Assembly (NCBI GenBank): GCA_021399435.1
Contig: JAJTUP010000059.1
Coordinates: 186,001 to 250,000, forward strand
Length of the DNA stretch: 64,000 nt
Source of the DNA: Diaporthe sp. PMI_573
Lineage: Eukaryota; Ascomycota; Sordariomycetes; Diaporthales; Diaporthaceae
Reading direction: 5' to 3'
Shown here one piece after another: positions 16,128-58,475 of the stretch. Made by a program: the position numbers and the translations under genes. How positions within the stretch are numbered: the first letter of the stretch is position 1; every line of letters starts with the position of its first letter. The notes below the pieces were generated by a model. That model did not search any database, had not been told where the DNA came from, and saw only the letters and a program-made list of their open reading frames with translations.

Positions 16128-17920
16128 ATGCCTTCCGAGTCGAGGGTCGAGAACCCCTTGTTCCATCCCTTCCTGTTCTGGTTCCAAGTTTTCCAGTACT
16201 TGACAGATAAGATTTTGTCACCAGCACCCCCGGACAGGAGCAAACCTCTGCGCAGACCAAAGGTAGCCATCATTGGGGCTGGTATCACTGGTGTTACGTC
16301 CGCAGCTCATTGTGTCGGCCATGGTTTCGATGTCACTATATTCGAGGCTGGAGGGGAGGATAACCTGGGCGGCATCTGGAGTGTGAGTGCCCCCCTCAAA
16401 CACCTGCGTGAATGCCGACTGTGACCGACCGCTGACGGCATTCAGAGGGTCAACAACACCTCGAGTCTCCAGATCCACTCGTTGATGTATCGGTTTCACC
16501 CCTCGGTAAAGTGGGAACGGGGTTACCCTGACCGTCAGCAGATTTTGAGCCAGGTTAGGCAGCTGTGGAAGAGGTACAACCTGGATGAGAAGACAGTGTT
16601 CAACTTCAAGGCCGATAAAGTCTACCAAGATGAGAAGGGTTGTTGGGTGATCAATAATACCTCCAATGGAAGATTTGACGGTCTTATTGCGGCCGTTGGC
16701 ACTTGTGGCGATCCCAAGCGTAAGTCGACAGCCACGACTTCAGACAGAGCGACCATTTGCTAAAAAAAAAAAAAAAATTGTCTTTTTATAGGACCTCATA
16801 TTCCAGGCATAGAAAAGTATCGCGGGCCCATCTACCATTCCAGCCAATTAACTGGCAAGAGCGCCAAGGGCAAGACCATGGTGGTCATCGGCGGCGGAGC
16901 GAGCGCAGTAGAAGCTCTGGAGTATGCAGCCGACGAAGATGCTGCCAAGGTTTATATCCTCGCCAGATCCGACAAGTGGATAATTCCGCGCAACCCAATC
17001 GTCAACATGCTTCTCGCGTTCAACATCTTCGGCCAAGAAACAATGCTGTCCTGGATCCCCGAGATGTTCCTCAAGAAGCTGTTCTACCGCGACCTGCAAG
17101 ACATTGCCCCTTACAACAAGGGAATCTTTATGGACACGCCGATGGTCAACACAGACGTCATGGACAGGATTCGCTCGGGACAGGCCGAATGGGTAAGGTG
17201 CGACATCGAAGGGTTCGAGGAGGGTGGGGTCAAGGTGAACCGCAGGGCAAGGGGCGTTCCCGCCGGTGGGCCAGGACGCGAGGACATAATCGAAGCCGAC
17301 ATGATCGTCCTCGCCACTGGCTTCCAGCGCCCTTCCCTTTCATTCCTCCCCAAAGACAGCTTTGAGGAGCCCTACGGCGCGCCGAATTGGTATCTTCAGA
17401 CCTTCCCGCCAAACCACCCCTCCATTTCCGCCATCAACTGCACTTACCTCTCAGCGATCGGTACGGTAGGCAATTGGCACATTGGGATCTACACCCGTGA
17501 GTGTCACTTTTCTCTTGCAACGGATCCTCGACTTTCATGCTTTGGAATGTTCTAGAATGCAACACTTTAGGATCCGTAGCAGGACTAACGTCACCATTAG
17601 GGATCCTGCTCATGTTTCTCATCGACCCCCTTACCCGTCCGAGCCCATTCTGGATGGAACGATGGATCGATATGACCAAGATACTGAAAGCTCGCAGCCC
17701 TACAGGGGCGTTTGACTTCTTCACGTACCTGGAGTTGCTATGGTGGTTCACATTCTCTGTTGCTTTCAACCCGTTCAGGTGGAAGTGGGCGGTCTTTGTA
17801 TTCTTCGGCATCGGTTTTGCGCTGCCAAGGAGACTGGTGCAGGTTGAAGATGCCATCAGGAACGGCCTTGGTCGCCCGTCTAGTGAGCAGGTGAACAGGG
17901 ACCAAGGTGCGAGCATCTGA
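16128..17920 (+). CDS. FAD-dependent (FMO/BVMO-like) monooxygenase, membrane-tailed
   Basis: Four exons (16128-16382, 16446-16719, 16792-17496, 17601-17920) give 517 aa with all phases consistent. The FAD fold is marked by VAIIGAGITGV and an acidic end (IFEAGG). The FMO/BVMO-type motif is YRGPIYHSS, the NADPH fold is VVIGGGASAVEAL, and LATGF completes the set. The C-terminus has a hydrophobic stretch (LLWWFTFSVAFNPFRW and FVFFGIGFAL), so membrane attachment is likely. Such enzymes hydroxylate or insert oxygen using NADPH and O2; the substrate is unknown. Intron 2 contains a 15-A run. Intron 3 is a 104-bp introner-like element shared with two other genes in this window. The ATG at 16128 was preferred to an upstream one because the latter adds a residue block lacking family character. 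Confidence 0.85.
17497..17600 (+). repeat. Introner-like element, family A, copy 1
   Basis: A 104-bp phase-1 intron of the flavin monooxygenase. By manual alignment it matches the 104-bp intron at 24146-24249 at about 81 of 104 positions without gaps. It shares the branch-site block GCAGGACTAACGT and a central ATG(C/T)TTTG(G/T)AATG block. A 9-bp perfect inverted repeat (ACGGATCCT / AGGATCCGT) could fold most of the intron into one stem. Confidence 0.85.
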
Positions 17921-18284
17921 TCTGACAGGATGATGGTGCTATGTAGGAAATAGTTGAAACCCCTGGAAGAAGTCTCACGTTTGTGTGTCGATGGTTCTGT
18001 TGCCTGGTAGGTTGTAGGTAAGTTGAAGAATTGGCATGTGGTTCAAACTGCTGGTGACCAAGTCACGTCCGCATTTGTCTTTTACAGTATGTCGCGTATG
18101 TCATGAGAATTCAAAGGCCTTGTTTTCATTGATGTATCTGCCACCTAAGCAGTCCGTTCGAGATCTGGTGCTTGTCGCCGTGGATGTCATGATTTTGCCC
18201 TATGAGGGGGCTTGTCTCAAACGCGAGGCAGGCATCATCTTCTCTTCCTCGCCCCCTTTCTGCCCTCATGGCAGCTACGGATGC
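17921..18284. other. Convergent intergenic region
   Basis: Presumably the 3' UTRs of the monooxygenase and the small secreted protein gene. No gene is seen. Confidence 0.5.
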
Positions 18285-18770
18285 TTACTCGCACTTGAAC
18301 GCACGGTATTCGTAGTAGACAGGTAACGGTGTCTCGAATGTCCAGCCCTCCTGGTAGTGGTCGCTGCCGAACCAGAACTCGTCGGTGCCACCAGTAACAT
18401 CGTGGACAAGGACGTCTCCAGAGTGCTGGTTGCCGGAGCCATCGGTCCAGCTGATGGTGTATTTCGATTCAGTGAGGACTTCATTGGTGCTGGCGTAGAC
18501 GTTGCCTAAGACCGATGGAAACCAAGGTTAGACACATAAGTACAAACATATCACCGTGATTGGCAGCGGATAATTACAGTTCTTGTCAAAGATGTAAACA
18601 TCGATCTCTTGAGTGTCGAAGTCGTCGTGAACGCCGACGGTACAGAACCCATCGTCTTGGTTAGTGCACCAGAGGAGGCCACCGCCAATAGGAGGAGGAG
18701 CGGAGGAGGCCATGACGGTGATTGCCATGTTGGCAATGATGGCCATCAGGACGAAGAAGAGGTTCTGCAT
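18285..18770 (-). CDS. Small secreted cysteine-containing protein
   Basis: Two exons, 18770-18578 and 18505-18285, give 137 aa, joined at Cys (DKNC|NVYAS). The first about 21 residues are a strong signal peptide (NLFFVLMAIIANMAITVMA). The mature protein is short, acidic and aromatic, with four cysteines (WCTN, FCTVG, KNCN and the terminal FKCE), enough for two disulphides. Repeated beta-strand-like patterns (YTISWTDGSGNQHSGDV, then EFWFGSDHY) suggest a small beta fold. I do not recognise a family. Small size, secretion signal and paired cysteines make it an effector-type candidate, but that is inference. A stop soon after exon 1 in the unspliced frame supports the intron. Confidence 0.75.
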
Positions 18771-19749
18771 GATGAAAGACTTGAGAGAAGCTTTTCTTGT
18801 TCAGAAAGATGTGTTTGGTGTTTGGTGTTTTGTACGGTAACGTGTAGGCAGCCCAGAGGAGGGTGGATGGCCGTGTTGGAAATGGAAGAGGTGGTTGAAA
18901 GTGGAAGGTTGAAAGACTTGGGGATGAGAGACAAGAGAAGAAACGAGACAATACAGGGGCAAAATTAGGTGTTGGCAAGTGAGTGATTCACTGGAGTGCT
19001 TCACCGAGGTGCTTCACAGGCAGCAGACTCTACTGGAAGTGAACGATCCCAGGTCCGAGGGATGCGACAGATGACTTTTCGAGCCTTGGAAAGCAGGAGC
19101 TTCCCAATGTATTCGATGTGGGATGGATTTACTGTTGAAATGCAATTAGGAGGCCATGAGAAGACGCTTTCTGCAAAACAATCCTTGAGTGTTTCCGCAG
19201 CTTGGTAATTATGGGCATTCAACTGTCAAGGCAGTCATGTCTTCTTGCCTTCACACAGAAACTGCTTTGCTCTGCTAAGCTTTCCTGGAAATGACATGTC
19301 TCTCCCTTGGACTCGTCGTCACCTGTGTCGCCACCAAGTATAGGGAAGCGGTTTCCTGCCTTGGGATTCTGAAAGAGCTAGTTCTAGTCAGGCAAGTGCA
19401 CACAACAGAACCTCCGAGCACTCGGCGACGGCTTCAAATTGAAAAGTTCGACAGTACATCGGCAGTCACTTATATATCATATTCTATCACGCTCTGGGAT
19501 ACTTGTCGCTGGGTTGTATGGGATTACTTGCAAGCACCTGCATCTAATTTGTGCCAAAGTGGAAACAGCGACAAGCCAACGGAAGGATCACTCCTGATAT
19601 CGTGGGCGGATGAACCTTCTCACAATTCCGGTCAGTGAAGAAAGAAAACGCAGAGAAGTGTTGGGATATATTCTTCTAAAGCTATGCCGGAGTCTAGAGT
19701 TTATCTATGAATGCGCGGTATTACAATCTGCTACAATCAAGGGGACAGG
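18771..19749. other. Intergenic region
   Basis: The promoter of the small secreted protein gene and the 3' flank of SNO. ORFs here are short and lack domain signatures. Confidence 0.5.
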
Positions 19750-20688
19750 CTAATCGTGGTTTGACGTTCTCGGCTTTCTCCCTTGCCGTGTGGCATCAAC
19801 GCCAGCAAAAACAGTCTTGAGGACTTGCTCCAGCCACCAAACATGAATACGGATGTCGTCAGTCAGTTCGGGGTGGAAGCTGGTGCCCATGATGTTGCCC
19901 TGTCTGACAGCAACGATGTCGTTGAGCTCGCCGCCGCGGACCTCGGTGGTGCTATCCACCGCGCTGCCCTTCACCTTGTTCTTTCTGTCTGGCAAGACGG
20001 CCAGAATCTCAACCTCTGCCTTCTCTGGGTTTCCATTACGGACCGTAACTCCCGGCTCCACCGAATGCACAGTCGCGCCGGGTGCCAGCAGCTGCTCGAC
20101 AATGGGCGCCCGGATGAAGACGCCGGGGAACGGGGCCGCGGAGTCCGAGCCCGTCAGCAGGTCCGACTGCGCCAGGAACGGCAAATCGACATCTGCCACG
20201 AAGCTCTCGATCTGACGGCCAAAGTGGTTGCGGTGCACCTTGACGTCCAGGCCGCCTATGAGCTCCTGCCCACCCTTCTTGGCGGCGTTCGCGGCCTCAG
20301 CCAGGAGGATAAGACCTGCGCATGTGCCCCAGGTGGGCTTTTTAGCGGTTCTGAGGCGTCGTCAGTCCGGACCGCCTTCCCAGGGCCTGGCGAATGGGAG
20401 GGGGGGGGTGGCTGACGTGGGCAAGGCAACTCACTTGACGAAATCCCTCAGTGGCTCCAGAAGCCCCGACTGTGCTGCTATGAGGGCGATGGTGGTGCTC
20501 TCACCTCCTGGGATGATGAGGGCATCGCATCGTGACAAGTCGTCAGGGTTCCGGACTTCGAGGAAATCAAAGGACGGGCTCCCGTTGAGCGAGGACGTGC
20601 TGGTGAGATGCTGTGCGGATTTCTGGAGGAGTGAGAGGTGCTCGAGGAAGCCTCCCTGGAGGGCCAGGACGCCGACAGTAGCTGCCAT
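19750..20688 (-). CDS. SNO1: Pyridoxal 5'-phosphate synthase glutaminase subunit
   Basis: Two exons, 20688-20435 and 20350-19750, give 284 aa. The protein is a class-I glutaminase: VGVLALQGGFLEHL at the N-terminus, the oxyanion strand IIPGGESTTIAL, the nucleophile Cys in TWGTCAGLILLAE, and the His-Glu pair in SFHPELTDD. It releases ammonia from glutamine and passes it to the PDX1/SNZ dodecamer for vitamin B6 synthesis. It is longer than bacterial PdxT because of insertions around the middle (the ATVHSVEPGVTV to NKVKGSAVDS region), as is common in fungi. It lies head to head with PDX1, the arrangement often seen for SNO/SNZ, which suggests shared control. Confidence 0.93.
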
Positions 20689-21735
20689 TGCTTCGTGGGG
20701 CCGTCCAACCGAGGCCAGACGAGAATCAGACTTGATTGTGGTCAGGAGGGCCAAATTGGGTGCCCCCCCAGAGGACTCCCAAGAGGGACAGGTTCTTATG
20801 GGCGGCCCTGAACCTTGTGGGAAGGACCGACGGCTGACGGTGGGTTGACACGGCTCGGGCTCCCTCATTCGATGATGACGGCGGCAGATGAGTCGTGACG
20901 GGCGGCGATGTTGTTTTGGTTCGTCGCCAATGAGCATGAGCTGGTGACTTATCGGTGGCTCGGGACGGGCTGGGGGCTAGCCAAGTGTTGCTGGGGGCCG
21001 TCCTGCCGTTTTTTTATCGGGGCCAACTGGGCCATTGGCGCCACTGCCGTAGATCTGAACTCTATATCAAGGGTAGGCACGGATCGATGGTCCTGGGCGC
21101 CCTGCACCTGCCCTGCACCTGGCCCATTTCGTCCCGACATCGGGCGGTTTGTTGGTCATTTGTCACTTCCAAGTCTCTGAGTCATCAGCAGCCATTGAAC
21201 CAGGTCTGACTGTGCTGAGGCGTCGTCTGGCTGTTCAACTATATTATCATATGCGTTTGTCCGCGTGGAGGGCGTCTCGAGCGGTGTCACCCAGCCTCAC
21301 CTTGCATGCCGACCGACAACTCAGTGCTCGCTGCTGCAACCTCCTGAATCGTGCGGACCCTTGTGTATCCTGAGCCTCAGTCGTCGACTGGCCAGCCACC
21401 CGTCGCCCGTCGCCCGTGACTGCCCAAACTTCAAGGACGCTGCTTCCTCGCCGCACGGTGGCGAATTGGCCTGCAACGTCCAAGGGCACTCGAACGCAGA
21501 GGGTCGCATCCTTGGCACTCCAATTGCGACCGAAGACTTCTAGAAGATCAGACTGCAGTCTACTACTAGTCATTGTCTCCACACCCACTCGTCCGACTTC
21601 AAACCACACGCTCACAATAAGAACTGCTCCCCTTCTCCTGCAGCCACACATCACGCCCCAGATCTGGTCCCCAGTCCGTGCCGCAGCTCCTCGCAACAAT
21701 CCATCCCCCACACTCATACCCTTCCTCAGTCCACA
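20689..21735. promoter_or_regulatory. Bidirectional promoter region of the vitamin B6 pair
   Basis: This 1047-bp head-to-head spacer contains no supported gene and must hold the promoters of both SNO and PDX1. The right 150 bp are C/T-rich leader-like sequence ending in CCACA before the PDX1 ATG. Specific operator motifs could not be identified. Confidence 0.5.
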
Positions 21736-22707
21736 ATGGCAACCTCAAACGGAACCGCCAACACCACCACCGTCAACCTGGCCGCCCCGGCTACCAACGG
21801 CAGTGCCAATGGCGCTAACAAAAACTCCTTCGCCGTCAAGGCCGGCCTCGCTCAGATGCTCAAGGGCGGAGTCATCATGGACGTCGTGAACGCCCAGCAA
21901 GCCCGCATCGCTGAGGAGGCCGGCGCCTGTGCCGTCATGGCCCTCGAGCGTGTCCCCGCCGACATCCGCAAGGACGGCGGTGTCGCACGCATGAGCGACC
22001 CGTCCATGATCAAGGAGATCCAGGACGCCGTTACCATCCCGGTCATGGCCAAGGCCCGCATCGGCCACTTTGTGGAGTGCCAGATCCTCGAGGCCCTCGG
22101 TGTGGACTACATTGACGAGTCCGAGGTTCTCACCCCTGCGGACGTTGCCTACCACGTCGAGAAGAACAACTTCAGTGTGCCCTTCGTGTGCGGTTGCCGG
22201 AACCTGGGTGAGGCCCTCAGACGCATCACCGAGGGAGCCGCCATGATCCGCACCAAGGGAGAGGCCGGCACGGGAGACGTCGTCGAGGCCGTGAGACACA
22301 TGCGACAGGTCAATGCCGACATCGCCCGGGCCCAGGCGGCGCTGGCCAAGGAGGGCGAGCTCGGCATCCGAGCCCTCGCCAGGGAGCTGGGCTGTGACAC
22401 CACCCTTCTGAAGCAGACTGCGGAGCTGGGCCGTTTGCCCGTCGTGAACTTCGCCGCTGGAGGAGTTGCAACGCCAGCGGACGCCGCCCTGATGATGCAG
22501 CTCGGATGCGACGGTGTCTTTGTCGGTAGCGGTATCTTCAAGTCAGGAGACGCGGCAAAGAGGGCCAAGGCCATCGTCAAGGCCACAACCCATTTCAAGG
22601 ACCCCAAGGTGCTGGCTGAGTGCAGCACTGGCCTCGGTGAGGCCATGGTCGGCATCAACTGCGGCAACATGAGAGCGGACGAGAAGCTGGCCGGCAGGGG
22701 ATGGTAA
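21736..22707 (+). CDS. PDX1: Pyridoxal 5'-phosphate synthase subunit PDX1 (SNZ family)
   Basis: Single-exon ORF of 323 aa, a normal length with a 30-residue Asn/Thr/Ala-rich N-terminal extension. It builds PLP from ribose 5-phosphate, glyceraldehyde 3-phosphate and ammonia supplied by the glutaminase. Core motifs are intact: [27 protein letters not shown], the first active-site lysine in [37 protein letters not shown], the second lysine in [10 protein letters not shown], and the phosphate-binding [15 protein letters not shown] and [10 protein letters not shown] diverged 56-bp copy of its 3' end sits 35 bp past this block. Confidence 0.97.
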
Positions 22708-22967
22708 ATTTGGCAGTCTTGGGGCACACTTAGTCTTAGTTGGCATCAACTGCCGCAACTGGAGAGCGGACGAAAAGTTGGCCAGCAGAGGATGGATGGC
22801 AGCGTGAGTAGTTTTGGACCACTTTGCTATGGTCACATCTTGGCGTCAAAGACAACCAGCAGCAGCTTGTTTCGGTGTGGCAAGGACTCTATTTGAAGGC
22901 AGCCTTATTGCATGACCCCCGGGCTTTGTAACGCTCAATTATGTACTTGGGAGGAAAAGTTTATCGC
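22708..22967. other. 3' flank of PDX1 and of the GH3 relic
   Basis: This contains the short duplicated piece of PDX1; otherwise no gene is seen. Confidence 0.5.
22740..22795 (+). repeat. Tandem partial duplicate of the PDX1 3' end
   Basis: 56 bp matching 22649-22704 with 8 mismatches by manual alignment, offset by 91 bp. It would encode GINCRNWRADEKLASRGW against the genuine [18 protein letters not shown]. It lies after the stop codon and is not expressed as part of PDX1. Confidence 0.9.
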
Positions 22968-24400
22968 TTACGAAACGGTCAGAGTGGCCGTTGCTTTGAA
23001 GTCCCGACCGCTAGCTCCAACATAGAGTACATATTCACCCTTTACGACCTCCCACTCTTGCCCCGCCACGCTCCAAACGCTCAGGTCTCTGCGGCGTAGA
23101 TTGAACGTGACATCCACACTTTCGCCGGCCTGAATCATAGTCTTGTTGAACCGACGAAGTTGCCTAACGGGCTCACCAGCAGCAGCGGGGAAGGAAATGT
23201 ACAGTTGCGCAACCTCAGCCCCTGCCACGCTGCCGGCGTTGCTGATGGATGTTTTGGCGGTGGCGACAATGTCCCAGAGATCCTCTCGTCCACCGACAGC
23301 CTTGTCCCCAGTCGCGTACCCAGACTTGAGATTGCCGGACTCGACAGAGACGCTCGACGAATATTTAAAAGTGGTGTAGCTAAGTCCGTAACCGTATTCA
23401 AAGCGCGGTGTGATGTTGTACTGGTCGAAGTACTTGTAGTCGACGTAGTTACCGTCGGTGAAGTTCTCGCCGTCGTAAACAGCCAGGGCCGTGTTGGCTC
23501 CGACGTACCGCGGGGCAGCGTGGGTTCCGAAAATACTAATGCTGGTCTTATCCTTGAGAGGAAGTGCGTTCCTTGGTGTTCTTCAGGAGAACGATCGACT
23601 CGGATGCGTATTTTCTCGCGAGGACGCTGTGATTACCCCTGACGTCGCGGCGTTCTGTCTTGTCGGCCAGAGTAGGATAGCCTTGGTCCTGGGCGAGGTG
23701 GTAATAGCCAATCAGGTTCCTGATAGCCATGTCGTCTAAACGTGCGGACGTGAAGCTGCCGTTTGTGAGTCCAGTCCCCAGCGTGTCATTCGACCAATAC
23801 GAGCTGGAGGAGAGGTCCATGCCCGCGTTCGCGGCTTTGATTCCCGTCTTCTGTGCCGACACATCTGCGTGCACGATTCCTGGGAAGCCAAGCTCGACCT
23901 TGAGGTACCTCGCGAGCAGGTCCTGGCTCTCGCAGCTGTAGGTCCCGTTCACCTTATTCATACCGCATATTGCGCCTCCCATCCCGTTCTTGACCGTGTC
24001 GTAAAAGGGGGCGAGGTAAGTTTCGTGGAACGCCTTGTCACTGATCTGGACGCTGTAGGATCCGGAGTCGTCAGAAGAAGAGGAGGAGGTGCACCACCGC
24101 CGCCACCTCCACCCATGCGATTGGTCTCCTGCTCGTTCAAAATGTCTACGTATTACGTTAGTCCTGCTACGGGTCCTGGAGTGATGCGTTCTGGAGCATT
24201 ACAAAACATGAAAGACGGGGATCCGTAGAAGGAGAAGAATGATACTAACAGTGCTTGGCCGACGGGACAACTCCTGCGGCGGACATGCCCTTAACCACCG
24301 CGCCCGCAATGAGGCCCGCGTGGTAACTATCGAGACCATACGACTCTCCTGTGCGGCCTAAGGGCTGGAGGGTCAGCCCATAGGCAAGGTTTAATGCTCA
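22968..24400 (-). pseudogene. GH3 beta-glucosidase, frameshifted and 5'-truncated
   Basis: The minus strand reads as a fungal GH3 beta-glucosidase in pieces. Upstream, LGRTGESYGLDSYHAGLIAG leads to SAAGVVPSAKHY. An in-phase intron (24249-24146) follows, then ILNEQETNRM. A Gly-rich stretch (about 24080-24112) loses the frame, which resumes with FHETYLAPFYDTVK and GFPGIVHADVSAQ (the Asp is the expected nucleophile). An extra G at 23571-23572 shifts the frame after LLKNTK. The final frame gives RFEYGYGLSYTTF and the fibronectin-III-like C-terminus to the stop at 22968. The N-terminal third is missing where Gypsy-like sequence begins near 24400. Two frameshifts plus the truncation make it a pseudogene unless sequencing errors explain the shifts. 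Its intron is an introner-like element. Confidence 0.85.
24146..24249 (-). repeat. Introner-like element, family A, copy 2
   Basis: A 104-bp phase-1 intron (donor GTTAGT, acceptor GTAG) inside the GH3 relic, between AKH and ILNEQ. It differs from the AAA-gene copy at 57398-57501 at about 15 of 104 positions and from the monooxygenase copy at about 23, with no gaps. A CTACGGATCC / GGACCCGTAG pair can form a 10-bp stem with one mismatch. Confidence 0.88.
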
Positions 24401-24406
24401 TTTTCG

Positions 24407-24870
24407 TGACGCTTCGGCGTTTTTCCCCGCATATATGGGGGCGGCCTGAGAAAAAGTCGCTGCCGTATATATAAGAGTTATATACCTAAAGGCGTGTAAC
24501 GTTTAGCTTATATTACAGCTAAGATGAAATTGCGAGACGTTAATAGAGTGATTTATGGAGCGAAAGCCATAGAGTTAAATTTTGTAATGAGGGGGACTGC
24601 GTGACTGGTTACCTGGCTGAGGACGTTGACCAGTATCTATAGCTGCGACCGGAAGAGCGATGACTGGTCAGAGGCTGTATAGCGCCGCCTTGGGAGGGCT
24701 GTGACTAGTCTCAACGGGAAGAGCCATGACTGGTCAGCCAGTATATTTGTCCCTGTTTTATATCAAACAATCCTCTGTTGATACTTCGAAATCTATAGGC
24801 AGTTCAGGGCTGTGACAGCACCCCCTCCTCTAGAACCGAGCTCCCTGAGGTCGATTCAGGGGCCAGGCTT
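24407..24870 (-). mobile_element. Gypsy-type LTR retrotransposon 3' end, truncated
   Basis: On the minus strand a polypurine tract (GAGGAGGGGG) is followed within 3 bases by TGTCACAGCCCTGAAC, a normal 3' LTR start. The sequence before it (about 24818-24870) reads IDLRELGSRGGGAVT, as at the C-terminal end of many fungal Gypsy polyproteins. The LTR is AT-rich with TATA-like TATATAA motifs around 24464, and a candidate end (TGAC on plus) is near 24407. The LTR extent and its far end are uncertain, and no pol domain remains. It abuts and truncates the GH3 gene. Confidence 0.55.
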
Positions 24871-25073
24871 ATACAGGTATCTCCTGTAGAAGTTACACAC
24901 AATTAAGGATCTTCCGGGAGATGGATCAAGCATACATCACGAGCGGTTTCCCGTTGCACGCTACCGATAATTATTGTCTCGTACGATTACGCCGTTTCTT
25001 GAAAGCTCCTCATTGTTTATGCGTAGAGTACACGCGTCCATCGTTTCCTACCCGGAGAGTTCAATGTGGCACG

Positions 25074-26390: not shown

Positions 26391-26393
26391 ACA

Positions 26394-27576: not shown

Positions 27577-29172
27577 TCAGTTTTCATCTGTGTCAACGCG
27601 CTTCCTCTTCGCTGATGGGGCTTGAGACGGAATCTGCGAGTTCCTTCTCCGCTTGATACCAGCCCTGCTGCCCTGTGTTGTGGCCGTAGCGCCCTCTTCA
27701 GCAGCCGCGGCGCCTTGTTGGTATCTGAAGTTTGCGTCCTGGATGAAGGTATCCCGGTGCTGCTTTGCCAAATCCCGCAGATTCCTAAAGGCTGTGACTC
27801 CTGCAATGAATGATTGAACATTACCAGTCGTGGCCCACGCACCAAGTTGTGTCATGTGGTACTCCGGCCGTCCTCCGCGAGTGGTCTCTTCAGCAGCCGC
27901 GGCGCCTTGTTGGTATCTGAAGTTTGCGTCCTGGATGAAGGTATCCCGGTGCTGCTTTGCCAAATCACGCAAATTTCTAAACGCAGTCACCCCTTGAACA
28001 AATGGCCCAGGTGTGTCTGTCAGACCGAACGTTCTAAGTTGTGTCATGTGGTACTCCGGCCGTCCTCCGCGAGTGGTTGGCGCAGTAAGGTGGTGAGCGT
28101 ACAGTTTGAGTGTCCCGTCATGATAGGTTGAGCTGAACGCATATGATTTGCCATCGTAGACTGGCTCTTCCTGTCCGTAGTTTTGCAGTTCATGCATGGC
28201 GCGGGCTCCAATAGCTCCATCATAGCAAGCTTGCACAGTTTTGACAGCTGCAGAACCTTTTGGCCCTTTAACTTCTAAGAAGAAGTTAGGCACAAGAGGT
28301 ACATCCGGCCCAGGAGCAATGAAGCGGCCCAGCTTGGTACAGACGGCTGGATGAAGCTGTTCAGAGAGTGCACCATAGGAAAAATCTGGTTTTGCCGATG
28401 GTATGGTGTCATCTGTAAGTGGCTCAAGATGGTTGAAAAGTGTGTTCCTTGCTATCGGCCAATTTGCATCTTGTGTACCGAGAATAGTTGGAACGACATC
28501 TGCTACAATATCGGCCTCATTTCTGGCCCGCAAGTTGCTCTTGAGAAAAGTCTCAAATACATCAGCAGAGAGGTAGGAGGGTGATAATGATTGCCTTCGC
28601 GCCGGTAGTGCTTCAAAGACAGTCACTAGGTCTGGCTTCTGTGAACGCCAAATGGGATGAATGTTGTTTGCTGCCAAATGCTGTTCAAAGTTGGCATCGT
28701 GTGTTGAGGAAATGGGGCGCTGTGTTGTTGCCTTTGTTGGATTGATAGACTGGGTCGGTAGGCTTTTCAAAAAGGGTCTCATGGTGCCAGCTGCTGGTTG
28801 ATATCCTCGGAGGTCACACAGGCATGGGCCGCCGTGGCGTGCAAATTGAAGTAGTGTTTTGGTCTCTTTCAGTGTCGGATCATGAGCTGGTGTTGTGGGA
28901 GGTGATGGAAAGTAAGGCCGGTTGGAGCCCCTGTTTCGCCGGTCGAGTTCTTCCAAGGCGGAACGGGTCAGTGAGATTGTGGGTAGTCTGTCCCAGAACT
29001 CGGGCGGATAACGCCAATGTTTGCGCCGTTCGACTGTCGAATTGATGCTTTCAGCGCGAGAGCCGCCTCTTGCTTTCTGCTCCCGGTGTGGATTCTGGGG
29101 TGGCGGTTTTAGGGGGATCTCGTCTGGTGCAGCTTGCTGGGCTTGATTTTGTACCTTTGGGTTGAACGACAT
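27577..29172 (-). CDS. DUF7924 protein with PD-(D/E)XK nuclease-like core
   Basis: Intact single-exon ORF of 531 aa. Residues 1-110 are basic and Pro-rich (YPPEFWDRLPTISLTRSALE). The core at about 160-365 reads FEQHLAANNIHPI, KPDFSYGALSEQ (Asp263), FFLEVKGPKG (Glu300-Val-Lys302), and AIGARAMHELQNYG, then a beta-rich YAFSSTYHDGTLKLYAHH. The Asp followed by Glu-x-Lys fits the PD-(D/E)XK fold, as proposed for this large fungal family; catalysis is inference. Residues 367-429 and 430-493 are a near-perfect tandem copy. The tail has two nuclear-localisation-like clusters (IKRRR, KRKR). It lies upstream of, and in the same orientation as, the SNF2-like gene in an island full of transposon pieces. 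Confidence 0.8.
   Translation of the reverse strand: MSFNPKVQNQAQQAAPDEIPLKPPPQNPHREQKARGGSRAESINSTVERRKHWRYPPEFWDRLPTISLTRSALEELDRRNRGSNRPYFPSPPTTPAHDPTLKETKTLLQFARHGGPCLCDLRGYQPAAGTMRPFLKSLPTQSINPTKATTQRPISSTHDANFEQHLAANNIHPIWRSQKPDLVTVFEALPARRQSLSPSYLSADVFETFLKSNLRARNEADIVADVVPTILGTQDANWPIARNTLFNHLEPLTDDTIPSAKPDFSYGALSEQLHPAVCTKLGRFIAPGPDVPLVPNFFLEVKGPKGSAAVKTVQACYDGAIGARAMHELQNYGQEEPVYDGKSYAFSSTYHDGTLKLYAHHLTAPTTRGGRPEYHMTQLRTFGLTDTPGPFVQGVTAFRNLRDLAKQHRDTFIQDANFRYQQGAAAAEETTRGGRPEYHMTQLGAWATTGNVQSFIAGVTAFRNLRDLAKQHRDTFIQDANFRYQQGAAAAEEGATATTQGSRAGIKRRRNSQIPSQAPSAKRKRVDTDEN
27694..28074 (-). repeat. In-frame tandem duplication inside the DUF7924 gene
   Basis: Two adjacent units, 28074-27886 and 27885-27694 (63 and 64 codons). 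Both start TTRGGRPEYHMTQL and end FRYQQGAAAAEE. The last about 40 codons are almost identical at the DNA level; the central linker differs (RTFGLTDTPGPFVQ against GAWATTGNVQSFIA). Confidence 0.93.
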
Positions 29173-39548: not shown

Positions 39549-42500
39549 CTTGATGTCGGGGCGTACTGGACTGAGGGTTGATGGAGGGTTGATGTTATGC
39601 AATGTTGGATTGCCGATGATTGGGGATTGACTGTGTGCTGTGAGTTTGTGGTCGGTGACGCGCGACTGAAAGGCCCTGATCGAAAACTGGACGAAGGGCA
39701 GAGGTGGACCAGAGGGGTCAGTGGTGCCAATGTTGGTTGCCAGGATACCAAAAACACGTGGGCTGTTGAAGCTCCTGCAGCATTTTTGCCTTTCCGAATT
39801 CACAGCCCAAGCCTCTAAACCCTCACGAAAGATTTCCAGTCATAGGCTCCGGTATGAGTTATCATTGCATTAATCTCGAGCTGCCTACCCTATCCTCGAT
39901 TCTGAAAAGACATTGTAAACACGTCATTCAACCATTTCTGGACTTGTTGATTATGAAGTGCTGCCTCCATCATCTGCTTGCTCAGATCAACCTTTTGTGG
40001 GATTGAAGCATTTGAGCCCTCCCGGAATCAAGTTGTGGACTGGGTAATTAGAAACCGGCCTCCCATCGCTTGAAGCTATGCTCCCTCTCATACAGGGAGA
40101 TCTTGTTGGAATCTCATAGGCAGCTTTGTGTGGGAAGGGCAGTGGAAATTCGCATCGTAAGTCCCGGTGATCAGGCTGTCTAGTGCATGAATGAACAAGA
40201 AACTGAACTAACTGGGTGCGACTGTAGGTAGAGCAACTGCTAATAAAGCCAAGACGATGTTGTAGGGCCTGCAGAGGCCCCAATTGCCACAGCGGAAGGG
40301 ATGAGCCAGTAGTAACATTGGCCACCCCCTGACACCATTCCGCATGGGTCACGGATGAGAGGACAAAGTGTGAGCTCCATCCCATCATCCTGGAAATTGT
40401 TGTTCTCAGTCAGCATTCAACATCCGTCTTGGTTGATACAGAATGTGGCGTAGACTGATGCCGTCTATCAAGCTTGGAATACGAACGTTGAAGCCACATC
40501 CTTTGCTCCATCGTGTCACAAAGTTTAACTTGTACGCATGTCATCCTCACCGACGTACACGCTACGTTCCCCCTGTATCTTCGTTGTCTGTGGCAATGAC
40601 AAATCGACAACTCCACGCGCATCTGATCTTCAGCAGGCGCAGTCCTGTCCCAAATCACTCAAGATAGCGACACTCTGTGTATTCTTGTGACCGTCTGGAA
40701 AGGAACAGGACCTGCTAGACTTAGCCGTTGTCACATCTGTTGGCTGAAAGTCTGTCGTAATGCGCTGTGGGTTGGTAAGGTTGGGCTCTGGCAAGGGATA
40801 TCTGCTCGGAGATACCAGCTGAAAGGATGGATCGTTGGAATTACATGAGTTATCAGTTTCCCTCTCAAGAGATAACCGCGGAGACATTGTCGATGAGTTC
40901 CACCGGCCGGTGAGGCCAGTCAAGGTTGTTTGACGCGTGTGTTTTTCCTCGCAGCAAGGCAGCTGCGAGAGATTTTGGCAGAACGCCTGGAGCATGCAAG
41001 CTCGCAGGGGGGCTCCCTGGCAGGAAGGGTAGGCGGTCAACGTCAGGTGGAGCTCCGGGACGGTCTACACCCCCAAGGCGGCAGGCGGTCAGAAGCCGTC
41101 CGCACCTGCGGCAGAATCCTTCGCCGTGGAATATTTAAACCCTCGCCCCCCTCCCTCCTTTGCTTGTTTTCCTCTTTTCTTCTTCAGCTCTCTTTGCCTT
41201 TTGGCTTAGATCAAGTGTAGTATCTGTTCTTTTCAGTTTAATCTCTGAAAGTACTCTACGGAGTACAATCGTGATTATTCTAATTTTTGTCTCTGGGAGG
41301 ACGGCCCTCTGGGCTTGCCCATGGCCGACCTCCACAGTGTCCTCGGTATCACACTGCCTCCGAGTGACGCGAACCCTCCTTTTCATTGCTGTCTCAGGCT
41401 TGCCTAGGACGTGAGGAAGAAGATTGCCACGCGGGTCGTTTCTTGGCTTGCCCTTGCCCTCCAAATGCTGCGTCACCGCCCACCTGCTCCCGCGCCGGCC
41501 GCTGTTGACTCGACCGAGCTGTCCATCGAATCCATGCCTGGCCCCGCCCCTCGAGCAGAACGCCAGCCACTCGAACGACATCACAACAGGACAGCTGCCA
41601 CCAGTGTTGATTCACCACGACTCCGAATGCGCCCAAGCGAACACAGCTCCGTTTTCGCTTCCCTTTCCGCCATCTGCGGGCCTCGCAGAGACGACTCAGC
41701 ACTGCCGAGCGCGTCCGATTTCCATACAGGCTGCGAGGAGATGCATCGAATCCTCGTTCCTCCGCCACCTTGACCTCATCTCGAATGCCACGCCAGTTCT
41801 GTTCCATGCCTGGCCCCATAAAACGTTCGCTTGTTTGTGAGCCTTGGGCGCAGGTCACTCACCAACACGCTCGCCTGCTCTCAATTGCGTGGCCCACAGG
41901 AACGTGACGTGCAGCTCTAACTTTGAGTGAAAGGGCATAGAGAGGCTGTCCTTGATCCTTTAGGCCCGAGACTACGACTTATGGACGCCTGGGAGCCTCC
42001 AATTCACAGGCATCTCTGCACTCCCATGAGCGGCGGGAACCACGTCCAAATTGTCGAGAGCCAAGCTTGCTCCCACCTGCCAAACCTCATAACTTTGTCA
42101 CAATACAGTGCCCATGCATTGTTGGCCACCAGTGAGGAGATGCGTGCGTTTCCTTCAGCTCCAAATGCCACGCTGAGCTTGCGACAGTAGTGACCCGTTC
42201 CGAGCTTGCCGGTTTCGTAGCTCATACAAGCTGGGCTGCTCCAGGCAGTTTTTGGCCACGGCTGCCTTGCCCCTACGGTGGAATGCCACGACCCAACTTG
42301 AGACAACATGGTCATGAACCAGACTCCATCCACCCTTGGAGACTAGGACTGATCTGGGTCCCGCGCCTCTTCTTTCCTCTTAAGTTCAACACAGTGAGCA
42401 CCGGATGCCCGATGTCACTGGCCTCTGGAGGTCTGCTTGGCGTGATCCCAGTTGCTTTCCGACATCACTCGATAACCCTCGCACCCTCCACGCTTTGGTA

Positions 42501-48166: not shown

Positions 48167-48218
48167 CCCCATCCCCATCCCCATCCCCAGCCCCAGCCCC
48201 AGCCCCAGCCCCAGCCCC
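48167..48218. repeat. CCCCAT/CCCCAG hexanucleotide microsatellite
   Basis: About three CCCCAT units run into about six CCCCAG units without interruption. It is G-rich on the minus strand and could form G-quadruplexes. Confidence 0.85.
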
Positions 48219-48605: not shown

Positions 48606-48612
48606 TATAAAG
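48606..48612 (+). promoter_or_regulatory. Candidate TATA box of carbonic anhydrase
   Basis: TATAAAG lies 253 bp upstream of the ATG at 48859, followed by a pyrimidine-rich leader. Confidence 0.3.
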
Positions 48613-48785
48613 AATAATAAGATTCCCCGATCCTGAATGCCAATATGCGTCTATCTCGCTCCTCCATCTCACCCACCCGACCAGCCTGAGCCGGGCACAG
48701 GTAGCCAATCACTCTCTTCCGCTTACAAGAAGTGTCTCTCTTTAAGCTATTTTGTGCTTACCCCGTCAAAAAAACACCCTTGCTC

Positions 48786-48823
<38 letters not shown>

Positions 48824-48824
48824 G
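48786..48824. repeat. TTG x13 microsatellite
   Basis: Thirteen TTG units, 34 bp before the carbonic anhydrase start, probably in its 5' UTR. Confidence 0.9.
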
Positions 48825-48858
48825 CGCCGCACACTTCCTGCCGCGATATATATACCCA

Positions 48859-52019: not shown

Positions 52020-53511
52020 ACACGGAAACAATTTGTTGCTTATTACCTATATTTTATATTAGAGAATAAATAAATATAAACTAATTTTAAACTCATTTTA
52101 AAAACTTTATTTATAAAATATAGATATGGGTGGGGACACCAGTTTACTGAAAAAGAGAAAACACGAAAAAATTGGTAGCTTCTCTTTGATTGAGCGTGTC
52201 ATCCTTAGTGCAGGGGCCATGCTACTACATTGACGTTAGCAGGAGTCGAACTCGGGACTTTCGCGTTTCAACTCACATCTTCTCTCCCTTGTGCAGCGTA
52301 AACAGGACAACAACACCGTCACCTACATCACATCCCACAGCCGAAGGGCACGCCGCCCAGGAGCCAACTGGACACCACACGTTATGGCTGCTTCAGCTAC
52401 TGGAGACAGCCAATGTCGGCATCCCCAAACCTTGGATCTAGGAAGCGTACTGCACAACTGGGTCAGAGCGCACAATGGCCGTCTTTGGCAAACGCCGGAT
52501 GAAACGAGCTCTGTCATAGAGCAAACAGATTGCAAACAGACACAAATCAAGAATTGGTTTAATCACTAGCGGAGGAAAGCAAAGCTTGCATTAGAACGCG
52601 CCCTAGAGATACCTGAAGCGTTTATATCGGGATACAATTCTGACACAGCTAGAACTCTCCAGCATTTCTTTGCAACTATTGCAGATAATAAATACCTAAC
52701 TGGGGCAGGCAAAGTATCAATTGCCGAATCGACAGGGCTTAGTAATAAAGCGATTATTGATTTTTTTAACAAATATCGAAACAAGCCTTATTTTACTCGC
52801 GTAGCTGCTATTATTACAAATATAAAACTGCCAGATCTAAGTACAAGAGTAGATATTACTATGCAACCTACTAATATTTTCATTACATAGTATTTGCCCA
52901 TATTACCACTTTCTAGTTTAAGAGCCATAGCACTAATACAAGTTTTATAGTCTTTACAAACATTATTACCCTTATACGTTAAGCATATTATTAGTTTAAT
53001 TTCTACTACTACCCCTATAGAGATAATATTGTCTACTACTATGCAATCTTTAAATAAACAGAAATGTATTAAAATGACCTTACAAGATGGTAATCTAATA
53101 TTTGGGTAGCATTAAGAATGCCAGATTAATTTTATAACCGGGGTCGAGCCGTTATTATACAATTTTCCTGGTGTCTAAAATAATATATATCTCTATTAGA
53201 AATAGAAACTAATTAAATTTGTTACGCCTAATACTATTTCGCCAAGTTATCTCTAATAGTAGCTATAATACCAGTATAAAGTCAAGCCCTAGGTAATTCT
53301 AGATTAGGTCTTCGCACTTAATGAAATCCCGTTGCATGTAAATGGAACTGTCGACTTTATAGCTCTAAGGACAGTAGCAGAGCAGCTTTGCTCTCATAAA
53401 TCCTAGGCGCCGAGAGATTTCGGTTGTCTTTACTACAATATAAACTATTTATATTTTTAAGTTTCTCTACTAAGCTGAAATAATAATAAGTATTCTAAGA
53501 ATAAGGGATAA
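52020..53511. repeat. AT-rich, RIP-like degenerate block
   Basis: The sequence shifts abruptly to AT-rich with many TA steps and stop codons in all frames, as expected for repeats mutated by repeat-induced point mutation. An inverted pair CTATATTTTATA / TATAAAATATAG lies near 52049-52122. A homeodomain relic lies inside. Confidence 0.6.
52291..52890 (+). pseudogene. TALE-type homeodomain gene relic
   Basis: One frame runs from 52291 to 52890 with a single TAG at 52567-52569. It reads LGSVLHNWVRAHNGRLWQTP, then QTQIKNWFNH, stop, RRKAKLALERALEIPEAF, then TGAGKVSIAESTGLSNKAI. The first part with RRK after the stop matches the KN/TALE homeodomain, including the WF.N..RR recognition helix. The stop would be CAG (Gln) before a C-to-T change, the RIP direction. 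After 52890 the sequence decays. Confidence 0.6.
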
Positions 53512-53697
53512 TGTGGATTCGGCACATTCACTTGAGGTCACATGCTTAGTCATGTGACCACCCAGATAGCTACTTAAGGCCAAAGGGTGCAGCCATTTGG
53601 CTGCAATCTTTGTACAAGCAGACAACCACGAATGATACCCATCCTACACTACGAATGACCCCTTTCTATCGTATACGTATACGAAGGCCGACCAACA
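53512..53697 (+). mobile_element. Solo LTR with 5-bp target site duplication
   Basis: The 186-bp element begins TGTGGATTCGGC and ends GCCGACCAACA, so its ends are imperfect inverted copies starting TGT and ending ACA. It is flanked on both sides by GATAA (53507-53511 and 53698-53702), a perfect 5-bp target duplication. Short length and end sequence resemble Copia-type LTRs. No internal region is present, so it is a solo LTR left by recombination. Strand is nominal. Confidence 0.85.
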
Positions 53698-54536
53698 GAT
53701 AATATAGTTTATAGTGCTTCATCCTTCAATGCGGGGCTGCTGAGGATTTGGTAAAAGTACGACCCCGTGGCGCCAGAAAAGCAAAATGCACCGGCCGCCT
53801 TCTGACCACGTCTCATCCTGGGCGAGGAACTGATACCCAGCCACTTTTCACGTGCGCACGGCATACTAGTTATTGTCTGGTGGTAGCGGGCGCCCAGATT
53901 CGCTTAGACGAACCAACAGTTTTAGACCCAGCCAGCCCAGCCTCGGGTTCTGCCTGCGTCGCTTGCGCCAAAAAGACAGGCCGCCAGCGAGGTCGACTTA
54001 AGGCAGCAACGGCTGCATTACATCGGCCACCTGGAGCGGCGCAGTAGGCCCGTGGACTCGTGACACATTGGCCTAGCTGCCTGCACGAGTGTGAATGGAT
54101 GCCTCAATGCCTGGAAGCGTACGAATCGTCCCGGATGAGGCTCTTCGTCGGTGCCGGGCCGCCGGTACTAATAGGCTGCCGTTCCCGTTGCCCCTGATTG
54201 AAGACGAGGCGGAAGATGCACTTTTGCCCCAGATCTCTGCATTTCTATTTCGATCGTCTGACTTCTTGCGTCACCCAACTGTCATTTCCAAATGGCGGTT
54301 GCTAGAGAATCTGTGCATCAGAGTCCAGGACAAGGCCAATATGCATTGAGCACATGCGTCGAGGTAGTCTGCGAGAATCACAAGAACACGAGAGCTGTCC
54401 TCAAGCTATCCGGCAACTTTTCCATCGAGTACAGCCAGGATGCGGGACTCACGCAGAGGCAAGTGGCCAAAAGAGGCATCTCTTCCGCCCTGAACCATGT
54501 CCACTCTGGCGCGGTAGTTGGGCGTAAAAAGCTCTA
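53698..54536. other. Region upstream of the AAA ATPase
   Basis: Two plus-strand ORFs (54095-54349 and 54292-54543) could hold a first exon of the AAA gene, since the long frame has no good ATG at its front. I could not find a splice that I trust. Confidence 0.4.
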
Positions 54537-57500
54537 TTGTTGACACCCAAACTTAGGGACGCCCTGAAGGCTTGTGAGGCAGCGGGCTGCACTTTGCAGA
54601 CAACCGATGCGCAAAACGGCTCGGCGCCTCAAACCAATGCCACGGCTTTACAAAATGCGCTTATCAAGAGCGCCATATGGAAACTCGGTTCAGAGCTCGA
54701 GCAGAATAAGACGCAACATCCCTCCCATTGCTCTTCGACATCTGATGCAAGTCAAACCGCAAGTGACGACACTGTTTCCACTTCGGATTCAAAAGACGGC
54801 TCCAGCGATGCCAGTTCGGTGGCGAGTTCGAACAGTGCAGACGACCCGGTTGAAAAGTCCAAAGATGACGTGTCAGAAACACGAAACAGTGCTGAGGGAG
54901 GGTGCCAAGCTACCACCCCGAAGCCAAGCCTTCCGATCACATCTGAGGAGGAGAAAGGTGAAGACGGCACAGAAACCCCTGCAAGAGACTCTCCACCAGC
55001 CGTGGCCCCAGGCACCGGCGACGCCAAACCGGTCGAGGTCGCGACCGAAAAAGCTCCCAAGGTTGCTAAGCCATCCGCAGAGCCCGGACTAGACTTTAGC
55101 CGAGTATCTGAATCAGCATCGCATCCCGGGGCAAAGGATGAGGCTTCAACGAGTGGCGTAGCCAAGAAGCTAAGCAAAGATGCAAAGGCTGAGCGGGCCG
55201 CAGCACTCAAGAAGAGAAGAGAAGAAAAGAAGAAGGAGCATGAAGAGCAGGTTGAGGACCTGATCGAGGAGATTGCTCATCAACGCGAAGTCCTCCGGTC
55301 GCGTCGAGACCAGAAGACGCAGAAGCAGAAGCTACAGGCACTTCAGAAACGACTGGAGCGTCTGTGCCAGAAGGAACTCGACGACGACGACGAGTACGTG
55401 ACAAGTGATGACGAGGACGCAGATGACTATGCGTCGCCAGAGAAGGAATCACCACCTGCAAAAACAGACGACAAAGATGCAGAAGGCGACGATGGCGATC
55501 CGGCAAAAGACGAACCCGATTCATCAGCGGCTAAAGAGGACAAGACAAGCGAGGCCGAGGACACCAACGCCTGGCCTACTGTCAGCTCCAAGGCGAAGCA
55601 GGAATGGGAGGAGAGGAAAAAGTCGAGAGATGAAGAGAACGTTCATCTGGACGGGATCATGGACTTCATCGGCCTCGAGTCCGTCAAGTCAAAGATGCTC
55701 GAGATCAAGACTCTAGTCGACACTGCCCGTCGCCAGGATGTCAATCTCACCAGGGAGAGATTCAACACCGCCTTGGTGGGAAACTCTGGGACCGGAAAGA
55801 CAACTCTGGCTAAGCTTTACGCCAAGTTCCTCTCCTCACTCGACCTCGCCGACGACATGGTCGTGACCAGTTCCGGTTCGAAACTCGTGTATGAGGGGAT
55901 TAACGAACTCAAGAACGTTATCAGCATGGTCGATGAAAGGGGCGTTATCCTTATAGATGATGTCCATATCATCCGTCCTGATATCAGTAGTACAGGTCGC
56001 AAAGTGCTCGATTATCTCGTGACTGAGATGGACAGGCTACAAGGCAACGTTATATTCATCTTTACTGGATCTGGAAAGGACATGGAAACGTTTTTGACCC
56101 ACAATCGGAGCCTGCAGAGCCGAGTGCCGTTTACAATTAGTTTCGAGGACTATCAGGATGCTGAACTACTTCAGATCCTCGAGAAGCAGCTTCACGACAA
56201 GTTTAATGGCAAATTGAAGGTGGAAAAGGGCGTCAATGGTGTTTATATGCGCATTGTGGCGCGACGCATCGGCAGATGTCGGGGGCCATCCAACTTTGGA
56301 AATGCACGGGAAGTCGAAAACACACTAATGCGGATATTGTTCAGACAGGCTGTCCGACTGGAAGAGGCCCGCAAAGCGGACAAGGATGTTGACGACCTTT
56401 TCCTCGCCATGGAGGACATTGTTGGCCCACCCCCATCGACTGCCCTGGAAAACAGCAAGGCCTGGAAAAGCCTTCAGGGCATGGTCGGGCTCAAGTCCGT
56501 GAAGGAATCCCTGAAGGCAATAGTGCATCAGCTCCAAATTAGCTACGACCGTGAGCTCGCTGAGAAGCCCGTTGTCGACTGCCCACTGAACAGGATCTTC
56601 CTCGGAAACCCTGGAACTGGCAAGACCACCGTTGCCAAGTACTACGGACAAATCATGGTTGACATTGGGCTGCTTACTGACGGGGAGGTTGTCGTGAAAA
56701 GCCCGGCCGACTTTATCGGAGAGTACCTCGGCGAGTCTGAGAATATCACTAAGAGAATTCTCGCATCGACGAGAGGCAAAGTTCTCATTATCGATGAGGC
56801 CTATGGACTCAATGACAGCAGCGATGAGGCGAACGAGCACGGATGTGGAAATATCTACAAGACCGCCATCATTGACACTCTGGTTGCGAACATCCAGGGC
56901 GCGCCCAACGAGTGCATCCTGTTGCTTGGTTATAGGGACAGAATGGAGCGAATGTTCCAAGCCTCAAACCCTGGTCTGGCTCGCAGGTTCCCAATGTCAT
57001 CCGCGTTCGAATTTGACGACTTCACAGACGAGGAACTGCGCGAGATTCTTGACCTGAAGCTTAAAGAGCAAACCTACACAGCACCTGATGACGCCAAGAA
57101 TGTCGCGATGGAGGTTCTCGCCAGGGCAAGGAATCACCGTCACTTCGGCAATGCCGGGGAGGTCGACGTTCTCCTCAGCAGGGCTAAAGAGTTGCAACAA
57201 GCGCGGCTCGCGGCATGCACCGAAGAGTATGACCCGTTCTTGCTGGAGTCTCAGGACTTCGATGCCGACTTCGAGAGACCCAGCCACGCGGAAGTTCGCA
57301 TCCGAGACCTGTTCAAGGACTTTGTGGGTGCCGACGACCTTGTTGAGAAGCTAGTAGGCTACTCACGGATGGTACAAAATGCTAAGGCTCTGGAAATGTC
57401 AGTATCGTTCTTCTCCTTCTCCGGATCCCCGTCTTCTATGTTTTGGAATGTTTCAGAACACATCACTTGAGGACCCATGGCAGGACTAACGTAATATGCA

Positions 57501-58475
57501 GGGACCCACGCTCACAAATCCCATTTAACTACCTCTTCAGAGGGCCCCCAGGTAAGCAGTTCACCCACTTGAAGCAAGATTCAGAAACTTATAAATCGTG
57601 CAGGCACGGGCAAAACGACAACAGCTCGGAGAATCGGGCAGGTTTTCTATGACATGGGACTGTTGGCCACCAACCAAGTGTACGATTGTTCAACTACAGA
57701 CCTCATCGGCGAGTTTCGCGGGCAGACAGGGCCCAAGACACAGAAAGTCTTCCAGCGGGCTCTCGGTAAGGTTCTCTTCATCGTAAGCAGCTTTTGGATA
57801 CATTCTTTACCCCTTCAAGATCAACCATACCCCATATTTAGCCTGTACCACACAGGCTACAGGGTTTGAAACAGGCTATGGCTACCTTGTGGCTCACTCC
57901 TCACTGTATTGACATGAAGCTACTTCTTTGACAGCTAACTCTAAATGCTATAGGATGAGGCCTATCGGCTCAATGATGACGACCATTTCGGAAAAGAAGC
58001 CCTCGTCGAGATGCTGAACCTCCTGACCAAGGAAGCATACAAGGATAAGCTCGTGGTAATCCTCGCTGGATACAACGACGACATCAACAAACTCCTGCAG
58101 GTGAATGCCGGGCTGGGCAGTCGGTTCCCAGAAGTGATCCAGTTCGAGAGCCTCAAACCAAAAGACTGCGTCCAGCTCTTCGTCCAACGCCTCGAGGAGC
58201 AGAAGCTGGATGTCACCGACGTTAAGCCCGCACCAGTCAAGGCCAAACTGCAGAGCTCCTTCGAGAGGTTATCTGCGCTACCAGACTGGGGCAATGCCAG
58301 AGACGTCGACGCACTGGCGAAGGCAGTCTTTGGCAGGATGTTGAAGGGCTCCAGCGCTGGAAAGCCTGAGATGGTGGCCAAGGTCGGCGAGGTTTCCGCC
58401 GAGGTCGATGAGATGATTGCGGAAAGGGAGAAGCGGAATGGAGACTCATGCCCCGTGACTCATCTTTATCTATAG
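54537..58475 (+). CDS. Triple-AAA (CbbX/SpoVK-like) ATPase
   Basis: Exons 54537-57397, 57502-57551, 57604-57782 and 57954-58475 give at least 1203 aa. The true start is unresolved: the first codons are not ATG, so an upstream exon is likely. Residues 1-200 are polar, and 205-290 are a charged coiled coil (KKRREEKKKEHEEQVEDL). Three CbbX-type AAA modules follow. Module 1: Walker A GNSGTGKTT at about 414-422, degenerate Walker B LIDDVHII. Module 2: GNPGTGKTT at about 689-697, LIIDEAYGL. Module 3: GPPGTGKTT at about 968-976, LFIDEAYRL, then AGYNDDINKLL. Fungal proteins with this layout have unknown remodelling roles. Of its three introns, the first is a family-A and the third a family-B introner-like element; the third splits Walker B of module 3 between Ile and Asp. 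Confidence 0.85.
57398..57501 (+). repeat. Introner-like element, family A, copy 3
   Basis: A 104-bp phase-2 intron of the AAA gene (donor GTCAGT, acceptor TGCAG). It has about 89 of 104 positions identical to the GH3-relic intron and exactly the same length. Shared blocks include TTCTTCTCCTTCT, CGGATCCCCGTCTT and GCAGGACTAACGTAATA. Confidence 0.88.
57783..57953 (+). repeat. Introner-like element, family B, copy 1
   Basis: A 171-bp phase-0 intron of the AAA gene. Blocks shared with 61172-61360, in the same order: GTAAGCAGCTT.TGGATACA, CCCCTTCAAG, TTTGA.ACAGGCTATGG, and TTTGA.AGCT.ACTCT.AATGCT before the acceptor. An internal AGCCTGT / ACAGGCT pair can form a hairpin. Confidence 0.85.

Follow-up and report, generated by a model that had tools for sequence, protein, structure and literature searches.

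How do introns in three unrelated genes of one fungus come to share a sequence? The question is raised by a 64,000-nucleotide stretch of the genome of Diaporthe sp. PMI_573 (positions 186001 to 250000 of contig C173 in an 83.7-Mb assembly of 217 contigs; hereafter the window), in which a first-pass annotation had described three resembling introns and taken them for members of an introner-like family.

Three look-alike introns and their sites in relatives

Checking the letters of the window confirmed to the base that three introns of 104 bp each, lying in three unrelated genes, align with one another without gaps. Copy 1 (17497..17600, plus strand) interrupts a flavin monooxygenase gene (PF00743), between an open exon stretch at 16764..17496 and a second exon stretch at 17601..17908 (both plus strand). 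Copy 2 (24146..24249, minus strand) lies in the relic of a GH3 glycosidase gene, and copy 3 (57398..57501, plus strand) follows an open exon stretch (56496..57397, plus strand) of an AAA+ ATPase gene (PF00004/PF17866). We counted 15 mismatches between copies 2 and 3 and 23 between copies 1 and 2, in agreement with the approximate figures annotated, and 29 between copies 1 and 3. All three introns start with GT, end with AG and carry an internal GGACTAACGT upstream of the acceptor. Their annotated insertion phases, 1, 1 and 2, were borne out by frames that stay open across the spliced junctions, that of copy 2 resting on a relic with just 49 and 62 open codons.

Introns of a second kind, which we call family B (family A comprising copies 1 to 3), occur twice in the window. 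One, of 171 nt and thus below the length of most B copies, lies at 57783..57953 (plus strand) in the same AAA+ ATPase gene as copy 3; the other, of 189 nt, lies at 61172..61360 (plus strand), downstream of the copies in the AAA+ ATPase gene, where the frame test was inconsistent. Both copy 3 and the B copy at 57783-57953 are excised exactly in P0121, a public gene model of Diaporthe sp. PMI_573. When these two and an ordinary short intron were taken out of the AAA+ gene, the resulting protein was 100% identical to P0121 over 540 amino acids, and its spliced B junction reads GKVLFI^DEAYRL (the caret marks the junction).

Some further features of the window were recorded. The GH3 relic has a frame shift just after copy 2, within a glycine- and proline-rich stretch (24020-24145, minus strand), and a full-length gene for U2 spliceosomal RNA (41184-41378, plus strand, 157 bits) is located between copies 2 and 3. 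A tandem duplication of 192 bases, 91 to 94% alike, occupies 27694-28077, and a 57-base unit is repeated at 22648-22795 with a spacing of 91 bases and 86% likeness.

The sites of the introns were then compared with those of related proteins. The copy 1 site was continuous in all 10 of the flavin monooxygenase relatives examined out of 120 listed matches. P0001, which is 94% identical, reads through the site; it carries upstream an 18-residue insert that is missing in P0002 and P0003 and that stands at the point where the window frame also breaks, which marks P0001 as a reading of unspliced DNA. The first residues of P0005 and P0010, immediately ahead of the insert point, are unrelated sequence, as expected if an intron had been read. 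These three proteins therefore indicate that the copy 1 site is empty in their genomes, while the other seven relatives, among them the annotated Cytospora protein P0003, are compatible with a spliced or an unspliced reading.

For the AAA+ ATPase, 12 relatives were examined out of 120 listed. Apart from P0121 and P0125, which are annotated in this same fungus, all ten had a continuous copy 3 site. P0122 (89% identical) reads through the copy 3 site and terminates inside the next ordinary intron, and P0137 (52%) reads the ordinary intron after that site through in frame; the other eight could be spliced or unspliced there. Eight of the 10 also extend over the position of the B copy (57783-57953), without a break there. 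At the copy 2 site, 7 of the 10 GH3 relatives examined read through, their spliced or unspliced state not being evident, and P0244, P0246 and P0247, at 72 to 78% the most similar ones examined, start at or after the site and do not cover it. Absence of the introns from relatives, in the kind of comparison that the first-pass annotation had proposed, was found for copies 1 and 3; for copy 2 it may hold in the less similar relatives.

Copies, families and hosts across the genome

A 13-base core, GCAGGACTAACGT, occurs 111 times in the genome (65 + 46), against 0 times for the control, the same pattern read backwards, thus ruling out a chance likeness of the three introns. A DNA search with copy 3 returned at least 44 matches, with 40 of 201 candidates scored, and one for family B at least 40, with 40 of 74 scored. 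Allowing up to three mismatches, two longer patterns were found at 59 and 138 places, their controls at 1 and 0. Profile searches of 100 loci and the window delimited 157 distinct matches, of which family A accounts for 94 and family B for 63, and 152 elements (93 A and 59 B) were clean at both ends. Because the loci were picked from search matches, these copy counts are lower bounds drawn from a non-random sample. The whole-genome search called for by the first-pass annotation has thus yielded further copies, and of the hundreds to thousands that it projected, the copies shown exceed one hundred, as a lower bound, but do not reach thousands.

By their end motifs, the A copies form five subfamilies, A1 to A5. 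Copy 3 belongs to A1 (GTCAGT...ATGTAG), and copy 2, with the donor GTTAGT, adjoins in the tree A2, which has the donor GTTCGT. Copy 1 is placed in a different subfamily from both, A3, which ends in ...CACCATTAG; A4 is defined by GTAAGC...ACTTAG. Family B, of about 187 nt, reads GTAAGC...CTGACTCTGAATGCTGTAG. The two families gave three weak blastn matches with each other, the best covering 34 nt (E 2e-4). Median identity to the nearest neighbor was 93% among 87 A copies and 90% among 57 B copies.

Donors varied within these groups. Twenty A3 copies with near-identical bodies, among them C124:508565, C35:446734, C196:1444732 and C35:424124, carry four different donors (GTCAGT in 9, GTGAGT in 5, GTTCGT in 4 and GTTAGT in 2), three of which are also found on A1- or A2-like bodies, as if swapped between subfamilies. 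Two B copies have no GT donor, C161:148914 and C185:1332787 (ATAAGC and GCAAGT instead), and two B matches at C138:282429-282555 probably represent a single copy that has suffered a deletion.

The core places were spread unevenly. Among the 100 listed of the 111, 23 fell on C35 (1.9 expected), 10 on C173 (0.5 expected) and 2 on the 4.1-Mb contig C1 (5.5 expected), and introner density was more than fiftyfold apart between contigs, with 26.6 cores per Mb on C173 and 0.3 on C112. Poverty in genes as the cause was unsupported, since 13 one-kb samples of C1, C112 and C141 also contained open frames, of 83 to 333 codons. Local hopping was likewise unsupported: nearest neighbors shared a contig in 8 of 87 cases for family A and 4 of 57 for family B, against 8.7 and 3.2 in shuffles. 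An assembly of two subgenomes was rejected on the one gene tried, the monooxygenase region matching just its own two exons. Clusters do occur, at C174:1006591-1009190 and C173:324038-325757, where five and six introner matches lie within 1.7 to 2.6 kb.

The elements have the marks of introns. Spliceosomal splice sites and a branch site are present in the introner copies, and of the 152 elements subjected to a frame test, 90 were decisive, that is, had a clear open frame on both sides (62 undecided). Exact removal restored the frame in 66 of these 90 (P 1e-14 versus an expectation of 1/3), and leaving the element in place broke it in 89; the 24 copies that were out of frame after removal are likely explained by other introns nearby. 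Orientation was sense in 83 of 86 clear cases. Over all 152 elements, the longer frame was the sense one in 127 and the antisense one in 22, the two being equal in 3; 6 elements had no sense frame of 60 codons.

Since look-alike introns could also be ordinary introns whose host genes or segments were duplicated or converted, we compared hosts and flanks. With two overlapping frames left out, 64 of the 66 host frames were scanned, and these match 45 Pfam families between them (E 1e-4), the commonest being sugar transporters with 4 of 64. Comparison of 304 flanks, with elements masked, gave 12 alike pairs, one of them beyond 3 kb of itself. Duplication could draw on the stretches that hold several copies and on the lone alike flank pair from two contigs (46 nt, 78%), but the flanks are otherwise unlike, the hosts are as diverse as stated, and the monooxygenase region has no match in the genome besides its two exons. 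For copy 1 duplication is refuted outright, as this intron is identical in 104 of 104 nt to the intron C35:446734-446836, whose host is a GH3 gene unrelated to the monooxygenase and located on a different contig. We therefore give this explanation hardly any credence. The first-pass annotation was right to exclude gene duplication, and its assignment to an introner-like family is supported by the multiple copies, the unrelated hosts, the mostly sense and frame-restoring insertions and the identical pair.

Target preference and copies at donors

Likeness among the copies extends to both splice sites, and neither the scan for end repeats nor the copy edges revealed a target duplication supplying one splice site. 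In family A no target duplication was found, the best setting of all those scanned giving 5 of 93 copies versus 1.5 expected. In family B, AGT...AGT ends were present in 26 of 59 copies versus 15.6 expected. A target duplication of AGT was nevertheless rejected, since a duplicated AGT would imply the loss of a base on splicing, whereas the interrupted sites continue as ATG codons; the repeated AGT follows from the exon context, CA^TG. CA before and TG after the insertion were found in 17 of the 59 B copies, while CATG makes up 0.48% of the positions in the same flanks (P 9e-26), and allowing CA or TA before TG raised the number to 22. Only 1 of 93 A copies lies in CA^TG. As judged by eye, the preference is present in two B clades and lacking in one.

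Where the phase of CA^TG B copies was decided, it was phase 1 in 7 of 9, meaning that the interrupted codon is ATG. In a wider set of B junctions, for instance, a P-type ATPase reads GFS^MGI and an amino acid permease reads FVT^MVGGNP; the methionines of both are taken to be conserved. A group II-like pairing of family B with its target was tried and rejected, the value for a copy's own junction being 5.02, versus 5.15 for the junctions of other copies and 5.05 for shifted windows. The CA^TG preference of family B is new with respect to the literature examined, where no such target word is described for a fungal introner and where fungal twin introns are without it.

At five places, one introner copy is located at the donor of another, giving rise to stwintrons or to exons of a single nucleotide. 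At C160:334177, an A1 copy splits a B donor as G^TAAGC, which corresponds to a [D1,2] stwintron. Stepwise removal leaves 166 and 151 open codons before and after the junction, against 166 and 123 for removal in one step, and the oligopeptide transporter (OPT) domain scores 317.5 bits across the junction when splicing is stepwise but 176.3 bits, stopping near the junction, when it is not. At C35:424124, an A3 copy splits a B donor as GT^AAGC, the [D2,3] form; here the frame gives no decision (149 and 17 codons stepwise versus 149 and 25 in one step). At C138:818906, C138:713499 and C145:359687, two introns lie one base apart. Counting that single base as an exon leaves 150/131, 150/47 and 54/103 codons, respectively, versus 150/56, 150/15 and 54/34 if both introns leave in one step and the upstream frame is kept. 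At C138:713499, stepwise removal yields 137.7 bits for the amino acid permease domain and one-step removal 113.2; no Pfam domain matched the stepwise proteins at C138:818906 and C145:359687.

Stepwise splicing hence fits the frame in four of the five pairs, and the domain spans the junction in both pairs that match one. We predict that at all five the first intron is removed and then the second. The pairs could instead be long single introns, or damaged sequence, and not nested insertions; removal of a stwintron in one step has been observed (PMC12403724), the frame at C35:424124 favors neither, and the one-step frame at C160:334177, with its 123 codons, is open too. Against this stand the longer stepwise frames in four of five pairs and the higher stepwise domain scores at C160:334177 and C138:713499, and we regard such a reading as rather improbable.

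The pairs also bear on where introners land. Among same-strand neighbors within 60 nt, 5 of 11 were at the donor (P 1e-5 to 3e-4, simple binomial), in a test devised after the pairs had been seen and with the C35 pair joined to ten others, its locus having been chosen because the pair had already been noticed; opposite-strand neighbors within 60 nt were not found. Three strict pattern searches of the genome for more donor-side pairs brought back three of those already known and added none. No two of the five are made up alike and each occurs once, which argues that they arose separately. A tentative idea, which we put forward as possible though doubtful, is that introners home on donors: insertion would be coupled to the splicing machinery and tend to fall no more than two bases from a donor already present, so that stwintrons and one-nucleotide exons arise, with family B guided in addition by CA^TG, a target word of its own that is in many cases a methionine codon in frame.

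Route of spread and relation to known introners

Taken together, these data make it probable that the three introns belong to an introner family of many copies, which likely spread as excised intron RNA reinserted at new gene positions, that family B is alike except for its preference for CA^TG, and that the donor-side pairs are removed stepwise, as predicted. An introner would be spliced out as RNA, and the excised RNA would re-enter the genome, by reverse splicing or by capture at a DNA break, so seamlessly that no exon bases are lost or gained; a second introner landing on the donor of a first would then produce a stwintron or a one-nucleotide exon. Of the routes considered, we hold spread by intron RNA to be the most likely and infer the RNA intermediate from the edges at splice sites, the sense orientation, the seamless insertion and the lack of target duplication. 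The same re-entry of excised intron RNA has been argued for other fungal introners in the literature examined.

Some features are less readily accounted for. The CA^TG preference of family B points to a step of choosing or cutting that plain reverse splicing does not predict, and the symmetry of family A, which is partly its own reverse complement, is what one would expect of a DNA element with inverted ends and so counts against the RNA route. Mean symmetry z was 1.8 to 4.5 by subfamily in family A, highest in A3, and 0.6 to 1.2 in family B, which is hardly symmetrical, showing that symmetry is not needed for both families. The fold of copy 1 is a single long hairpin (z -3.9), and the values for copies 2 and 3 are -3.0 and -0.3; on average family A has a stable fold, and copy 3 and family B do not. 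A consensus fold of 31 A copies comprised 21 pairs, none of them changed on both sides, and no known RNA family was detected in six loci with composites.

Short inverted-repeat DNA transposons have been proposed for algal introners and for most introner families. By analogy, the introners studied here could have moved as DNA, as short non-autonomous inverted-repeat transposons carrying splice sites. The symmetry of family A, the hairpin of copy 1 and the target preference of family B would suit such elements, but family A has no target duplication that we could find, the AGT repeats of family B stem from CA^TG and, if duplicated, would leave the spliced message one base short, family B is not symmetrical, the likeness of the copies reaches both splice sites, and nearly all clear copies are in sense. 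We consider movement as DNA unlikely and retain spread by intron RNA.

The origin of new introns is an old open question that fungi with fresh copies allow to be tested, and this genome offers identical introns in unrelated genes, two families together and empty sites in relatives. The donor-side composites look like snapshots of an intron landing on the donor of another and, if they did form in this way, stwintrons need no special route. The target word of family B, if true, would provide a handle on the site-choosing step of a fungal introner.

Introner-like elements (ILEs) of Dothideomycetes were reportedly described by van der Burgt in 2012. They are look-alike spliceosomal introns in unrelated genes, with several families per genome (Collemare 2015, PMC4457414). 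The introns studied here resemble ILEs in their unrelated hosts, several families, new sites and near-identical recent copies, and differ from them in the CA^TG preference of family B and in the copies located at donors of other copies. The host, moreover, belongs to the Diaporthales (Sordariomycetes) and is not a dothideomycete; in the open-access papers searched, we found no report of introners in Diaporthales.

DNA-transposon introners of algae were reportedly described by Huff in 2016. They share with the present introns their shortness, their many copies and their action as introns, whereas here no target duplication was found, no splice site is borrowed from the flank and the clear copies are nearly all in sense. 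Ascomycete introners have been described as outliers that lack TIRs and TSDs (PMC9860276).

The sister stwintrons and cropped sister introns of Hypoxylaceae and Xylariaceae (PMC8469720, PMC12403724) offer a further comparison. Like the family A introns, they are symmetrical canonical introns of about 100 nt that multiply, and as in the present stwintrons their donors are split by an inner intron and insertion is seamless, with no target duplication. The center of copy 1 reads TTCTAGAA, which also occurs in the 10-nt palindrome of those sister introns, a correspondence that we record as likeness only. The sister stwintrons of Xylariales multiply as one [D1,2] unit, while the five pairs described here are single and their parts multiply separately; a multi-copy twin intron as in Hypoxylaceae was not encountered, the five pairs being unlike each other and three strict searches adding none. 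Finally, no exon bias is reported for the twin introns (PMC12403724, PMC8469720), whereas family B has a strong one.
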